The position numbers were made by a program, and so were the translations under genes. Below the pieces are notes generated by a model. It was given only the letters and a program-made list of their open reading frames with translations. It was not told the DNA's origin and searched no databases. A stretch of 64,000 nucleotides of DNA from Dentipellis sp. KUC8613 (taxonomy: Eukaryota; Basidiomycota; Agaricomycetes; Russulales; Hericiaceae). How positions within the stretch are numbered: the first letter of the stretch is position 1; the number at the start of each line of letters is the position of its first letter. Location: positions 138,860-202,859 of the forward strand of contig NSJX01000013.1 of assembly GCA_002286715.1 (NCBI GenBank). Reading direction: 5' to 3'. This document shows, piece after piece, positions 12,539 through 23,113 of the stretch.

Positions 12539-15500
12539 CTAACCAACCACAGCTGCCGCTGGAGACACCGCATCCCTCGCAATCCTCATAATGCCATACA
12601 AGAACACCTGTACCTGCACCAACGCCACCGCCACGAAGACGACACCCATCAGCGTGCCATAGAAGATGAGCGGGTTCGCAGCGCGGAGCCGCTGGATGTC
12701 TTCGAGGGCGATGTAGTCCCAGCTCTTGCGCCTCCGGATGAGCTGCTGGAGCCGCTTTTCTCGCGCCGCGAACCGCTGCTCCGTGTATTCAGTATATGAT
12801 CACCAAATGGATAACAGGGACGCTGTCGCGACTTACAGATGGCACGGCGTTCGCGAATCGTACATCGTTGGCAATCTGGTTTAGCTGTTGGGTGCTCAAG
12901 TCGAGCATGGCCGACAGGTAGGGGAAGAAGGTGCTGTTTATCCCCTCCATGAGCGCCCTCCACGACCCGAGCACTTCCTTCCCGATGCCCTCAATGCCCA
13001 TTGCACTAGTTCAACAGACAAGAGTCAGAATCGGGCGCAACACTGAGAAACGGAGATGCCACTTCTACGTACAGAGCGATCCTGTTCGTCTGATATGTCC
13101 GCAACGTCGGGGTCAGCAGCGGATTCAGCCTGAATATCTTGACTACATTGTCCCTCAGTTGGAGGTGCTCATCTAGCCTATGGGTGGGCACAATGACGAG
13201 CCCCACGGCAGCGAGATCGCTGAAGGAGACGTCGAAGACGGGGCACATGGCGGTGGCGGCGGGCAGCAGAGGGAACACGCCCTTGGTGATGTCTGACAAG
13301 ACACCGGAAGCACGATACGGATTGGCATAGGGTGTCGCGAGAGCCAGCTTGAGCAACGTCGAAGGGTACTCCGAGGGAACCTGCACAGCAAGTAAGTTGA
13401 ACGGCATTGGTCGCAGTCGTTGACTCTAGCGTACCTTCAGTCCTGACTGCGCACTATGTACTTTCACCATAAAACCCTGGAAGTCGTCCACGTGCAACTG
13501 TGTCCTGGGTCCGGCACTCGCGAACGCGTCCGCGACGACGAACCGAAGGTACTCCAATTGCTTCTCCATCGGGAAGCTATCCCTGTCCAGGCTCTTCATG
13601 TACGCCATCATAAGACGGTGGTGCTGGGTCTCCCGCCGACCGTCTCCAATAAACAGAATCTCGTTGAACGCAGCTATGTGTTCCTTCATGAATGACTCCG
13701 TCAAGCGGATCACCCTCGACCGGGTGCTGGCATAGACCGGCGACCGCTCTGGCTGTTCATCCTCCCCCTCCTCCCCCTCCTCCTCCACATCGGAGGGTAT
13801 GTCGGAAAATTCTAGGCCCGTCCACAACTTAAGTTCCCAATTTCTTAGCTCGTCGCTGGCGTCTCCACCTGTTAATGATGAGCATCTTCATTACATCAGG
13901 TCCCATTATGAAGGCGGCGAGAGTACGCACTGCCGCTCCCCCATCCCGAATAGCCAGGCACGATGGTAGGATTGACAAGGGTGGCATCCGTACCAATTTG
14001 AGATGGATAGTGCGTCTGTGACACGGACTGTGGAGGGCTTTGTGGAGGCTGGATGATGACCGTCGGTGGATTAGACTGCATCACATGGATGGGTCCGGGT
14101 GAGTCTGCACGAATGGAGCGGGGAGAGGATGGCGTCGGCGAGCGCGACCTTGAGTAATATCGCACCTGTTTGATTTATGAATCAATAACAAATATATCGA
14201 TGGGGCGAGGATGTATACGTTGTCGGTGTCAACCACGACATGCATTCCCGAGGAATTCTGTCTCTTTGCCTTGCGATGCAACGCTTCTTTGCTCAGACAC
14301 TCGATCGAACCTAGAGAAAGCTATGAGGCTCGTGGAATTGTCAACACTGAACGTCAAGACACTGACCGTATACCACACCCTCGGTGACGGTCTTGATCAC
14401 CGAGGGCTGGTTATCTGCGAGATATTGTGCAATATCGGACGCGGTAGTCGCAGTCTTGCAAGTGTCAGTCGTGCGTTGCAAGATATACAGCGACTGGAAA
14501 GTACCTCCGTGTACGGGTTGAGGTCCTCGTCATGGGCAATCGCCAAGTCAACGTCGGAAGTCTGCGCGGACTGTTCAACACAAAACAGCAGCTGGCGCTG
14601 ATATAACGTACCTGCAGGATATAATCGAGCACAGGAAATATCATATCACTATGCTGCAGTCAAGTATGGTTCAGTACTCGATAGCTAGTCCTTGGTCGGC
14701 CTTTGGGCTGACCTCATAATTGTCCGGGACGACGTGACTACGCCCAGTCCAGGCACTGGAGCCGTGCGTCGTGTCCACTTCTCCGGTCGTGTCCACTTCT
14801 CCGGTCGTGTCCACTTCTCCGGTCGTGTCCACTTCTCCGGTCGTGTCCACTTCTCCGGTCGTGTCCACCTCTCCAGCCGGGTCCGATTCCGGTTCTCCAG
14901 TGATTCTTGCTTCTCCAATCACATCCGCCTCCTCAGGCTCGTGGGTTTCTCCAGGGTTGACGACGACACCTCCCCCATCAGAATCTCCGTCGACGGGTCC
15001 ATGCAAGTCAATCGGTTCGGCAGCAGCTTTCAGCTTCACGGGCAAGAAACGGCCTCTGCTCTTGGCCCTGAACCCGCGGATGAAGACACACTGGTTGTAC
15101 TGAGTATTGATCGGCTTCTGCAGCTGGTCTTGGGACGTTGATACAGCGATGGCTTCGCCACTCGTGACCGCTCCAGTGAGCTCGTTTGTCGACACCGAGG
15201 TCTCGGGATCAGGACCCCAATTATACTGCGCATTCTCGTCGTGCGTCCAGCTCAGGCTAGACGCAAACGAGGCAGACCCGACGCCGGCGAAATCGACACT
15301 GAGCTGGATGCGGCTGTCGAAGTCGGTGCTCGTGAAAGCCGCAACCGCCCAGGTTGTCGTGCGGTCGCAGCCCGTGATGAGCACGAGGTCCTCCATACGA
15401 AGGCTCAGCTTCAGCTGCTCGGTGAGTGCATGCCAGCGCTCGCAGTGCTCACGCATGTACTCTTTGTAGGCGCCGCGACTGCGGGTGTCCGCGCGCCGCG

Positions 15501-15938
15501 CTTTCTCGGGGAGGACGAGCACGGCTCCTCTGCGGCGCGAGCAGGCAAATTTGAGCGAGATCTGGCCTCCCGCTGGCACTACGCTATTGAAGCCCATCAG
15601 GAAAAAGAGCTATCAAGGGGTCTCATAACTTACAACGGAGCGTCTATTTCAGCTGCGACAACACTCCGCGACCGGTACGGCCCCGGGCGTAAGGTCCGAT
15701 GGTAGATGTGCGACGGACCACAATCCAAGGGCTCAAATTGCTCCGGCAAGGGCCTCCCTTGGGATGGATGATCAGCGGCAAGATGAACATTGAAGAGACG
15801 GTGAAATCCGCCATAGAACACATATCCAACATCGCCGACCTCTACCTGTTGGCTGGAATCATTGGGGTCTGGTTCCCACAGCGCGTGTCCGTGATTCAGG
15901 GTCGCCAGCTGGTCCGTGTAGAGCTCATGGCAGGCCAT
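12539..15938 (-). CDS. Large uncharacterised two-part protein with C-terminal membrane helix
   Basis: Function unknown. Exons: 15938-15634, 15583-14713, 14653-14612, 14570-14505, 14454-14367, 14310-14219, 14165-13931, 13868-13435, 13380-13073, 13005-12837, 12775-12539; 948 aa, all phases consistent. The N-terminal ~430 residues match a protein type I recall from Agaricomycete genomes, with landmarks GDVGYVFYGGFHRLFN, YHRTLRPGPYRSRS, MEDLVLITGCDRTTTW and DVDLAIAHDEDL. Within it is a run of the hexapeptide TTGEVD. The C-terminal half has a Pro/Ser-rich linker, an acidic stretch, then helical sequence ending in a single hydrophobic segment (about LIFYGTLMGVVFVAVALV) close to the C-terminus, suggesting a tail-anchored end. 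Two adjacent genes are possible: the first could end soon after 14505. The start could also be an in-frame ATG at 15950. Confidence 0.7.
14771..14880. repeat. 18-bp coding minisatellite
   Basis: About six tandem copies of an 18-bp unit (GTCCACTTCTCCGGTCGT on the plus strand) inside the second exon of the 948-aa protein. Each copy encodes TTGEVD on the minus strand, and flanking degenerate copies suggest past expansion. Confidence 0.9.
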
Positions 15939-16579: not shown

Positions 16580-16590
16580 CGTATATAAAC
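16580..16590 (+). promoter_or_regulatory. TATA box of the Con-6 gene
   Basis: GTATATAAAC lies about 95 nt upstream of the Con-6 start codon in a pyrimidine-rich context. Confidence 0.65.
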
Positions 16591-16681
16591 CCTCTTGACC
16601 TTCGCGTCTGTCTCCTATCTCTCCAACAACCACTTACTCTTGCCCGACATATCTCCAAGCTACCAGTTCTTCTACAAAATC

Positions 16682-17266
16682 ATGTCCGGTACGCACCGCT
16701 GGCTGCTGTTACTGGACTTGCACGAGTCTCATACCATCATCATGCAGAACACAAAGACCCCACCCGTGTTGCTGCCGGCCTCAAGGCATCCATACACAAT
16801 CCGCACGTCTCCGACGAAGCGAAGCACTCTGCCCATGAGCGTCTTGAGCAGATGGGCGCCCTGCAGCCCGAACATCATAAACGTACTCCAACGGAAGCCG
16901 AAGTCCACGAACAACACGTCATTGGTTAGTACCAAGCTACTCCCCATCGTCGCGTCTCAAACTCACTGCACTTATCGAACAGCAGGCTACAAGGCCGCGC
17001 TGCACAACGACAACGTCTCCGAGCAGGCGAAAGCCCACGCTCGCGAGATTCTTGAAGCCATAGGCTATATACGAGGACCACATACGACCGAGGAGGAGCA
17101 CCAGATCCGCGTCCTCGCTGGCTACAAAGCTGCCCTGTCGAGTGAGCATTTGTGGTACTGTCACTTGGCACAAGAACTTACCACGTTGTAACGTCCAGAT
17201 CCCCATGTCTCTGACGCTGCTAAGCTGCATGCTGCTGAATACCTCAGAGCTCACAATGCTTGGTAA
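16682..17266 (+). CDS. Conidiation-specific protein 6 (Con-6) family
   Basis: Small hydrophilic protein of 136 aa. Exons 16682-16688, 16748-16924, 16983-17141, 17199-17266; the first coding exon is only 7 nt (ATGTCCG). It carries three copies of the Con-6 motif: AAGLKASIHNPHVSDEAK, AGYKAALHNDNVSEQAK and AGYKAALSNPHVSDAAK. Each is followed by a helical stretch of the type AHERLEQMGA. In ascomycetes Con-6 accumulates during conidiation and in resting cells; the role in basidiomycetes is not established. The second intron ends in CAGCAG, so exon 3 could also begin at 16986, which would drop one Ala. Confidence 0.93.
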
Positions 17267-19849: not shown

Positions 19850-21209
19850 TTAGTCAAGGTTGTCGAGGGCTCGGCGAGCGAGGGCTGCCATTAATACGCT
19901 GCCCGCGCCGGGGCTTCGCCTATGCAGAATCACGCCATGTCAGAAGTGGTTCGACGATGAGAAAGTCGAGGTTCAGCTGGGGCACTCACTTCACAGCTGC
20001 CGCCGCCTCCAGGATGTCGGGGACGAAGGGGAGAACATCCTTGGCGACTTCCTCGATGTCATCCTCAACAGTGCCGCGCCTATATCAAAGCGATCGGTGA
20101 GCTTGTTTACTGCAGATAAGAGGATGTTATCACTGACTTCACGGCCGCCGCTGCCTCCAGGATGTCGGGGACGAAAGGAAGCACCTCCTTAGCGACGTCC
20201 TCAATGTCTTGTTCAACGGTACCGCGTCTATAAACCAGATATCCATATATGATGAGTCACTCTATCCAAAAGTAGAGGAGGGGGTACGACTGACTTCACA
20301 GCCGCTGCCGCCTCCAGAATGTCGGGGACGAAGGGAAGCACCTCCTTGGCGACGTCCTCGATATCTTGTTCAATCGACGAAGCATTCCTCTTCGCTTTCG
20401 TTCTGGGCGACAACGGGTGACATCAGCTTTTGCCTGAGGGCGGACGAAGTGGCCGAAGCACGCACTCGAACTCGTTGATGATGTCAGGAAGCAGCGGCAG
20501 GATGTCCTCTGCTGCGGTGACCGCGGCCGAGGCAACAGTCCTCTTTGCTTTCGATCTGTAAATGTTACGGGAAAGGAATCGGGTGAATTCATGCTCAAGA
20601 ATGGAGATAGGGCCATGGTACGCACTCGAACTCGTTGATAATGTCGGGAAGCAACGGCAGAAGGTCTTCCGCGGCAGTCACTGCAGCTGATGCAACAGTC
20701 CTCTTCGCCTTTGTTCTATGGCCAGCATATTAGTCTTCGTTCGATGATACGGGCAATGTAGCACGCACTCGAACTCGTTGATGATGTCGGGAAGCAACGG
20801 CAGGATATCCTCTGCTGCGGTGATCGCGGCGGATGCAACAGTCCTCTTCGTCTTTGACCTATTGGGTTCGGGTGGGGAAAGTTAATGTCACATTTATTTA
20901 GCGATGGCAGGCGAAATAATACGCACTCAAATTCTTGAATGATATCAGGGAGCAAGGGCAGAATATCCTCTGCTGCAGTCACAGCAGCAGACGCCACAGT
21001 GCGCTTTCCACTGAAGCCGTCTGAGTTAGATGGTGCACGTCAAAGGTGTGTGAGACGTACTGCAGCTTCTGAATAAAGGGGGCGACCTTTAGGGCTTCTT
21101 GGAAGAGCGTCTCGAGGTCGGGCGTCTCCTCGCGAGGAAGGTTAGAAATGGGAAGCGCAGAAGCCGAAAGGGCTAAGGCAAGGACGAGGGCGAAGGTGGA
21201 GGGCTGCAT
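19850..21209 (-). CDS. Secreted exon-cassette repeat precursor A (candidate Kex2-processed)
   Basis: Unrecognised secreted protein, 286 aa, nine exons: 21209-21061, 21010-20927, 20858-20769, 20715-20626, 20555-20466, 20402-20295, 20227-20138, 20079-19990, 19919-19850. A signal peptide (about 1-20, MQPSTFALVLALALSASALP) precedes seven cassettes, one per exon (84, 90, 90, 90, 108, 90, 90 nt), all bounded by phase-2 introns. Cassettes 1-4 share the core TVASAAVTAAEDILPLLP; cassettes 5-7 share EDVAKEVLPFVPDILEAAAAV. Every cassette begins just before or at Lys-Arg, so Kex2 cleavage would release peptides of about 28 residues, probably amphipathic helices. A short C-terminal tail follows (ALARRALDNLD). 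Family, receptor and role are unknown. A plain structural repeat protein is the main alternative. Confidence 0.82.
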
Positions 21210-21365
21210 TGTGGTAATGAGAGGATGGAGAGATGTTCGTGAAGCGAAAGTAGATGGACAAAAGAGCGATTTGCTAGAAAGCACGAAAGGGTAACCAGTA
21301 CCGAAATGACAACTACAGAAGACGAAGAGGAGCGCTGCTGAGGATCCCATCTCCCACCATGGTCT

Positions 21366-21406
21366 CTTTTTATAGTTCACAGCTGCGATGCTGCCGCCGG
21401 AAAATT
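21366..21406 (-). promoter_or_regulatory. TATA box and conserved block upstream of precursor A
   Basis: Minus-strand TATAAAAAG about 157 nt upstream of the start codon. The adjoining 32 nt (21375-21406) differ from the equivalent block upstream of precursor B at only about three positions. Confidence 0.7.
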
Positions 21407-22133
21407 AGTAGTCGTCCTGGCTTCCAGCTCACCAAATATCTGCGTCTGATGGTATCTTCTCCTTACCGACAGCGCATGGCCACGAGCGCATACATCAAAC
21501 CACGCAGAAGGTTTATTGGCAGCGGGCGCATCGGGGCGCAACCAGAACCAGAATCGAGAACACTGGGATATTGCCATCTGTTGAAGTTGCAGCGTTGGCC
21601 TGCCATCAATCTACCACCTCCCACGCATAACGTTATCATGATCATGTTAGATGAAACGATTGCTCACTATAGGTTCCACCCATCTGTCGACGTCGTCCAA
21701 AATCTTCACTGCGGTGCAGTCTCTGGGGGTTACCTAGTGGAACAAAGCTCTACGCCTGGGCTTTATTAGTCTCGGTCGGGATTTTGAGCCGACTGGGATA
21801 TCTATATCAGATGAGAAGAAGAGTGGCCCGTCCTCATTGAGGTCAACCACAAGAGCTAGCGCCAGTGGCAAGTGATCCGTGGGACCATCACCACCCTCAG
21901 TCTCCTCAGCGTGCGGTGCCACCCAGTGGTCCCAATTTGATGATATGATGACCAGCACGCCACCAACTGACAGAAACGCGCATCGGTGCCATCGAGGAAT
22001 ATAAATACCACCAGAGCGGCCGACGGAAGGGCTTGGCAAGCACAACCACGACAACCTGCATGCCTTGTTCAACTGTAACATTGAAGAGATATAGGAACAA
22101 AATCTGAATATCGAATTATTGCACCACACGCCC

Positions 22134-22203
22134 TAGTCAAGGTCGTCGAGAGCGCGGCGAGCGAGCACTGCCATTACTGTGCCACCTGCACCGGAGCTAT
22201 GCC
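22134..22203 (-). pseudogene. Stranded terminal exon of precursor B
   Basis: This is the counterpart of the last exon of precursor A: it still ends in AVLARRALDDLD and a stop, with an intact acceptor. It lies beyond the in-frame TAG at 22285-22287, so it is not translated in the full gene. Its first codons have also lost the Lys-Arg found in copy A. Confidence 0.75.
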
Positions 22204-22284
22204 TGTACCAAAGCACGCCACGTCAGAAGTAGTTCAACGTTGAGAAAGCGGACGTTGGACAACTGACTTTACAGCCGGGGACGC

Positions 22285-23113
22285 CTACAAGAAGTCGGGG
22301 AGAAACTTCGTGATCTTTCCAATATCTTCGACGGTGTCGCGTCTAGATTCCAGGCGCCCGCAGTTCATGAGTGTGCAAAAGAGATGGGGAAGAGATGACT
22401 GACGTCACAACCGGAGCCTCCTCCAGGATTGTTGGGAGGAATTTCACGACCTTTCCGATATCTTCGGCGTTGCCCCGTCTAAATTTCCGATGCCCACAGT
22501 CGATGAGTATGGTCCATGGAAGAGAAGGAGTGTATGACTGACTTAACGGCTGGTACCTCGTCTAGGAACTCTGGGAGGAAGTTCGTGACGTTTCCGATAT
22601 CTTCAATGATGTCACGTCTTGATGATTTCAGAAGCCCGTGGTTGATGAGTACGGGACATCAAAAGAGATGGAGGATATGACTGACTTAACAGGTGGGGCT
22701 TCGTCCAGGAAATGGGGGAGGAAGTGCGTGATCTTTCCGATGTCTTCGTTAGTGTCGCGTCTGGGAGACAGCATCGATGAACATCGTAAAGCACAAGGAA
22801 GACATAATCACTGACTTGATGATTGCAGCCACTCCCCCCAGGACATCAGGACCCAAAGACGAAATCTCCTCTGCTGTAGCGGTGGATATCGTGGTCCTCT
22901 TATGGCTGTAATCATTTGAGTCAGAAGTGTGAACGCTAAGGGTAGAAATCATACGTACCTCGGCTTCTGGACACGAGCAGAGATTTGTGCGGCCTCTTGG
23001 CGGGCAGTTTCGACTTGAGCCATCTCCGAGTTTGCGCGAGGAATATGAGTGACTGGAAGTCCAGAAGCCGAAACGGCCAAGGCGATGACAAGGGCGAAGA
23101 TGAAGGGCTGCAT
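22285..23113 (-). CDS. Secreted exon-cassette repeat precursor B, truncated paralog
   Basis: Tandem paralog of precursor A, 175 aa. Exons: 23113-22959, 22905-22816, 22760-22686, 22617-22543, 22478-22404, 22342-22285, all with phase-2 junctions. The signal peptide (MQPFIFALVIALAVSASGLP) resembles that of A. The cassettes are shorter (mostly 75 nt, 25 aa) with core EDIGKITHFLPHFLDEAPPV, related to the second cassette type of A. Lys-Arg precedes four cassettes; between the last two the site reads Thr-Arg. The final cassette contains TAG at 22285-22287 where its sisters have coding sequence. The rest of that cassette and a terminal exon remain downstream, so the gene has been shortened recently or is decaying. 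Confidence 0.78.

Follow-up and report, generated by a model that had tools for sequence, protein, structure and literature searches.

A nine-exon Dentipellis gene with the anatomy of a Kex2-processed repeat protein and one exon per cassette

Gene A and its tandem paralogue

Two related genes lie in tandem on the minus strand of the window, the whole 64-kb stretch of Dentipellis sp. KUC8613 DNA analysed here, with gene B just upstream of gene A and in the same orientation. Their features are as follows.

21230..21609, minus strand: promoter and 5' leader of gene A, with TATAAA 165 nt before the ATG; gene B-like (local alignment)
21061..21209, minus strand: gene A exon 1, ATG, hydrophobic signal-like N-terminus and acidic leader before the first cassette (splice model)
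20927..21010, minus strand: exon 2, type A cassette 1, HGKR-TVASAAVTAAEDILPLLPDIIQEF (splice model and codon comparison)
20769..20858, minus strand: exon 3, type A cassette 2 (splice model and DNA repeats)
20626..20715, minus strand: exon 4, type A cassette 3, predicted helix-kink-helix (splice model, DNA repeats and structure model)
20466..20555, minus strand: exon 5, type A cassette 4 (splice model and DNA repeats)
20295..20402, minus strand: exon 6, type B cassette 1 behind a type A style linker, ETKAKR (splice model)
20138..20227, minus strand: exon 7, type B cassette 2, with the Lys codon of KR split by an intron (splice model and DNA repeats)
19990..20079, minus strand: exon 8, type B cassette 3 (splice model and DNA repeats)
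19850..19919, minus strand: exon 9, KR, C-terminal tail and stop; the gene B tail is similar (splice model and sequence comparison)
22133..23113, minus strand: gene B, tandem paralogue with seven exons (23113-22959, 22905-22816, 22760-22686, 22617-22543, 22478-22404, 22342-22268 and 22202-22133) and six phase-2 introns (splice model and sequence comparison)
22433..22748, minus strand: tandem array in gene B, 2.2 copies of a 143-bp unit that spans an exon and an intron, 75% matches (Tandem Repeats Finder)

The splice model, built from DNA, joins the nine exons of gene A (21209-19850; 149, 84, 90, 90, 90, 108, 90, 90 and 70 nt) into a frame of 286 residues. All eight introns are 50–70 nt long, have GT..AG borders and are in phase 2, the phase given by the first-pass annotation, and six of the eight contain a YTRAY consensus branch site; intron 1 has an alternative, nearer AG acceptor, use of which would lose the frame. 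Exons 2–8 encode 28, 30, 30, 30, 36, 30 and 30 residues, bearing out the earlier description of seven segments of 28–36 residues with one exon each. The product starts with about 20 residues, MQPSTFALVLALALSASALP, made up of a hydrophobic run and, judged by eye, a plausible ASA cleavage site, followed by the acidic leader, four type A cassettes (..KRTVASAAVTAAEDILPLLPDIINEF, exons 2–5), three type B cassettes (..EDVAKEVLPFVPDILEAAAAV, exons 6–8) and a short tail. The two families had been described as alternating in blocks; the blocks of four and three stand, but they are consecutive and do not alternate. The idea that the leader is itself a relative of the cassettes is unsupported, as 225–1436 of 2000 shuffles were equally good in five comparisons.

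Each of exons 2–9 has a Lys-Arg pair at its start or close to it, so that the earlier claim of KR before each segment holds. Past residue 19 (267 residues) there are eight such pairs, whereas 20000 shuffles average 0.70 and never exceed 5. The pair is preceded by two residues in exon 2 and by four in each of exons 3–6, while in exons 7–9 its Lys codon is interrupted by the intron; exon 9 forms an eighth KR-led segment, unlike types A and B. At the DNA level the repeats of gene A are beyond chance, with a 101-nt family (copies 71, 80 and 89% identical to the reference copy) and a 102-nt family (copies 74 and 83%). Mean column identity of the encoded cassettes is 96% for type A and 90% for type B, and identity to the first copy is 90–93% and 80–90%, respectively.

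Over residues 1–49 the products of genes A and B share 51% identity (E 2.9e-6). The resemblance extends into the promoter and 5' leader, which give a local alignment score of 162 (best of 200 shuffles, 27) and place TATAAA at -165 in gene A and -167 in gene B; the regions 3' of the two genes cannot be aligned (score 22, best shuffle 33). Between the genes, the first 72 coding nucleotides and the last exon have dS values of 0.48 and 0.49 and dN/dS values of 0.40 and 0.39, so that this shared chassis is itself just moderately constrained. Gene B, whose cassettes have diverged further than those of gene A, looks relaxed or broken: its exon 6 carries an in-frame TAG, KR is degenerate at two of six positions (TR and KH), and dN/dS among its cassettes is 0.15–0.44 in six pairs.

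Constraint, descent and duplication of the cassettes

Comparison of the cassette copies with one another separates change in the peptide from change in the codons. For exon 2 set against exons 3, 4 and 5, pS is 0.78, 0.84 and 0.83 and pN is 0.078, 0.069 and 0.052. Where residues are shared, codons are identical at 9 of 24, 7 of 24 and 8 of 25 positions, respectively, set against random expectations of 9.0, 8.9 and 9.4 taken from codon usage in four long open stretches within the window. With codon identity at the random level, exon 2 keeps no synonymous memory of a common origin and has long been separated from the other type A cassettes; the array is therefore not freshly duplicated throughout, and recent duplication of all cassettes is ruled out. 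Less divergence separates exons 3 and 5, with 20 identical codons of 25 (9.6 expected, z 4.5); the z values are 2.6 for exons 3 and 4, 1.5 for exons 4 and 5, and 2.6, 2.7 and 1.8 for the type B pairs. Over the 25 codons compared, exons 6 and 7 differ by eight synonymous changes and no amino-acid change, and the remaining two type B pairs have dN/dS values of 0.13 and 0.09, each cassette pair offering about 18–20 synonymous sites. The peptides of gene A are under strong purifying selection, and low amino-acid change at diverged synonymous sites is the pattern expected if each copy yields the same peptide.

This pattern bears on whether gene A is a gene at all. The stop and degenerate KR sites of the adjoining gene B, along with the lack of a protein-database homologue, would suit a pseudogene, or an artefact of gene modelling in which the repeats have no real transcript. 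Neutral DNA does not give such low non-synonymous change at diverged synonymous sites, however, and the frame of gene A stays open across nine exons and eight GT..AG introns, making this account very improbable.

All cassettes, of types A and B and of gene B, probably share one ancestor, as judged from shuffle tests and from profile comparisons that are all short and weak. The similarity of a type A to a type B cassette is matched by 1 of 2000 shuffles (profile comparison E 2.1e-5, probability 77%). Exons 3–5 of gene B are type B-like, with 1, 1 and 0 of 2000 shuffles equally good and a profile comparison of type B with gene B at E 3.6e-6 (probability 87%); their assignment to type A was rejected (411, 449 and 47 of 2000 shuffles equal; hhalign E 0.0049, probability 7%). 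Exon 2 of gene B is similar to both types, with 10 of 2000 shuffles equally good for type A (profile E 7.7e-4, probability 25%) and 3 of 2000 for type B (E 0.006, probability 6%).

The first-pass annotation had proposed that copy number can change by exon duplication, and the two genes agree with this, gene A having seven cassettes and gene B five. The 143-bp array in gene B shows that the unit of duplication is an exon plus its intron. Three of 15 gene B intron pairs align, all among introns 3, 4 and 5 (z 4.9, 6.1 and 6.6), although dS among exons 3–5 is already 0.67–0.94. The 28 intron pairs of gene A include no good alignment (best z 2.6), even beside exons 3 and 5, whose dS is 0.30, and recent conversion of whole exon-plus-intron units there was rejected. 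The contrast between introns and exons in gene A could reflect homogenisation of exons only or faster change of introns, each pair providing about 20 synonymous sites.

Predicted peptides and their release

Near-identical amphipathic peptides released by Kex2 had been predicted from the sequence at first reading. The similarity of the cassettes, their helical moments and the overall architecture, which resembles that of the Kex2-processed repeat proteins (KEPs), agree with this, and release itself is deduced from a kexin-like gene in the host. Following KR cutting and trimming, the presumed type A peptide would have 28 residues and a net charge of -4, and the presumed type B peptides 28–30 residues and a net charge of -6 to -7; candidate released forms are TVASAAVTAAEDILPLLPDIINEFETKA, GTVEQDIEDVAKEVLPFVPDILEAAAAV and near variants. 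The seven gene A cores reach maximal helical moments of 0.49–0.58, compared with shuffled means of 0.26–0.29 (sd 0.08). In all four cores tested of the seven the moment peaks at 100 degrees, and over the whole peptide the moment of four cores is 0.37–0.43 at 100 degrees versus 0.15–0.19 at 170 degrees. The C-terminal tail is not amphipathic (0.32 versus 0.29 shuffled), and Tyr, Trp and Cys are absent from all 286 residues. After KR the cores start with TV in four cases, GT in two and NA in one, and the exon 9 tail starts with SP.

Short amphipathic helices in a multi-copy precursor, presumably extracellular, also recall membrane-active or antimicrobial peptides. The usual members of that group carry a net charge of the opposite sign, and at -4 to -7 the gene A peptides would have the wrong one, so that an antimicrobial precursor is an improbable reading of the locus.

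An AlphaFold2 single-sequence model of the exon 4 cassette (30 residues) shows two helices with a break at LPxxP, at a mean pLDDT of 90.4 and pTM of 0.42; as a model of one short cassette without an alignment it is weak evidence. KR falls within the first helix of the model, where it could hinder cleavage. Such a modelled unit would also suit a secreted helical repeat protein that is never cut, in which each cassette is a helix-kink-helix unit of a cell-wall protein or solenoid, with KR as the basic turn between units. Helical repeats of about cassette length are common solenoid units, and the same sequence pattern would fit. On the other hand, repeats of a single fold are seldom so alike while their synonymous sites drift so far, and KR is kept at eight of eight positions in gene A while lost at two of six in the presumably decaying gene B. 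A search of PDB sequences gave five matches, none convincing (best E 0.36), and the host genome carries the kexin-like gene. Together these points make an uncleaved repeat protein unlikely, if less so than an antimicrobial precursor.

The kexin-like gene is represented by adjoining open stretches at another locus of the host genome (L021) that match Peptidase_S8 (E 1.1e-21) and P_proprotein (E 1.1e-15); judged from this pairing of subtilase and P-domain, the host encodes a kexin-like protease. If gene A is a KEP, its precursor would enter the secretory pathway, where kexin in the Golgi would cleave it behind all eight KR pairs and a carboxypeptidase of the Kex1 type would remove the basic residues. 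The secreted products would be three B peptides and four A peptides that are nearly identical, and every peptide, A or B, is predicted to form a short, acidic and amphipathic helix-kink-helix centred on LPxxPDI. New cassettes would arise by duplication of exon-plus-intron units, and because the cassette exons are symmetric the frame would be kept.

We put the probability that gene A codes for a KEP at about 70%. This reading draws on the nine-exon frame, the phase-2 symmetry, KR before the cassettes, the constraint on the peptides and the kexin-like gene, as well as on the amphipathic cores, the tandem paralogue with the same chassis and the exon-plus-intron duplication unit of gene B; the case comprises gene A and one decayed paralogue in one genome.

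Relatives and known precursor classes

Searches for relatives were negative in each collection covered. The full protein of gene A, compared with 5.8 billion proteins, gave 6622 word candidates and none at E<=10, and the cassette profile search proposed by the first-pass annotation, here with a three-row alignment whose gene B row is partly misaligned, produced 40 candidates in the protein database and no match. The neighbouring GPI mannosyltransferase returned proteins of Dentipellis sp. KUC8613 (86% identity) and then Hericium alpestre (57%; best 120 of 391), showing that near fungi are present in the protein database; database relatives may either be truly missing or a nine-exon gene of this kind may have gone unannotated. 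Among the best candidates in the host's own genome (34.1-Mb assembly, 171 contigs), genes A and B were the sole copies at E <0.3. Pfam listed 16 families for gene A and four for gene B (up to its stop), all below cut-offs, and Rfam (at gathering scores) and tRNA searches found no matches within the window. Near gene A, an open stretch on the plus strand (16589-17188) matches Con-6, conidiation protein 6 (E 6.3e-19). An 18-bp minisatellite at 14768-14874 (5.9 copies, 98% match) codes for a TGEVDT hexapeptide repeat and lies within a minus-strand open frame, 14671-15609.

KEPs are a recognised class of fungal proteins (PMC6339444, PMC7329392, PMC9769878), and some Agaricomycete members are demonstrably processed to peptides (PMC9769878). 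Gene A shares with them a hydrophobic signal-like start, near-identical KR-separated repeats and the lack of a Pfam family over cut-off, and is unlike them in that its two peptide types stand in blocks and each cassette has an exon to itself. Neither exon nor intron is a term used in the main text of the surveys PMC6339444 and PMC7329392; in PMC9769878 exon is likewise absent, and the single mention of intron concerns cDNA cloning. We found no description of an exon-per-cassette KEP layout in the openly accessible literature searched. For Coprinopsis KEPs, expression in Pichia pastoris followed by mass spectrometry of the supernatant has been carried out (PMC9769878). Few KEP peptides have a known function; six KEP knockouts of Coprinopsis had no phenotype and synthetic Coprinopsis KEP peptides had no antibacterial activity, which speaks further against an antimicrobial role (PMC9769878).

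Going by published description, Rep1 and Hum3 of Ustilago maydis appear closest to gene A by anatomy. According to PMC4617103, both are basidiomycete precursors with amphipathic, Kex2-separated repeats (34–55 and 31–36 residues, respectively) of a size similar to the 28–36 residues of the gene A units; Hum3 bears a hydrophobin domain, and Rep1, which is treated also in PMC2515848, gives peptides of 35–53 residues that form amyloid-like fibrils. Within the KEP reading, gene A peptides could be repellent-like, forming assemblies on the surface of hyphae after Kex2 cutting and so rendering aerial structures water-repellent, as seven KR-separated units resemble the Rep1 and Hum3 repeats and many equal copies would suit a structural product. 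They differ in being 28–30 residues long, acidic and helix-like, with two prolines each, and gene A has no hydrophobin match; the prediction of helix over strand speaks weakly against fibrils of the Rep1 type. Any role of the peptides is a guess, a repellent-like one being the less likely and one in signalling or in interaction with other organisms the likelier.

The compared classes of KEP peptide that have been characterised do not fit. Ascomycete alpha-factor precursors also carry multi-copy peptides behind KR, but six of the seven gene A cores lack the STE13 dipeptide spacer and the peptides have 28–30 residues. The first-pass likening of gene A to alpha-factor consequently fails, XA or XP following KR in just one of seven cores (NA..), although the SP of the exon 9 tail also fits; basidiomycete mating pheromones are of a different, prenylated type (PMC9769878). 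Dikaritin precursors (ustiloxin type) share Kex2-cut repeats with gene A, whose membership is ruled out by cores without Tyr and by the lack, among the matches listed, of any UstYa match on its contig. UstYa (DUF3328), the enzyme of dikaritin synthesis, has at least 16 matches in the genome, none of these on the gene A contig (C27). They lie on C86, C89, C99, C103, C105, C111, C126, C139, C143 and C161, some as close pairs, and this pairing suggests several dikaritin-type clusters elsewhere in the genome. Schistosome micro-exon genes, with exons of 3–81 bp and introns of up to 5 kbp, also encode secreted proteins from short exons, a likeness of gene layout alone (PMC10526429).

By anatomy gene A is a KEP with newly found peptide sequences, its cleavage being deduced. 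The KEP surveys searched examine proteins and not gene structure, and here the structure shows two peptide types dosed 4:3 and a sister gene with the same chassis and changed cassettes. Synonymous drift with an unchanged peptide means that selection has acted on each copy. Should cassettes correspond to exons, searching for exons that are symmetric and KR-led might reveal KEPs overlooked by gene callers, and exon skipping would be a possible means of altering peptide output. Taken further, the gene might work as a peptide magazine in which each frame-neutral exon is a dose of A or B, amount and ratio are set by exon skipping at splicing and, across generations, by exon-plus-intron duplication, and promoter, signal and tail form a fixed chassis, a joint proposal that we regard as doubtful, more so than a repellent-like role. 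Were it true, gene A would represent a KEP subclass with its own evolution and perhaps regulation, and the acidic LPxxPDI peptides that it releases would form an orphan family.
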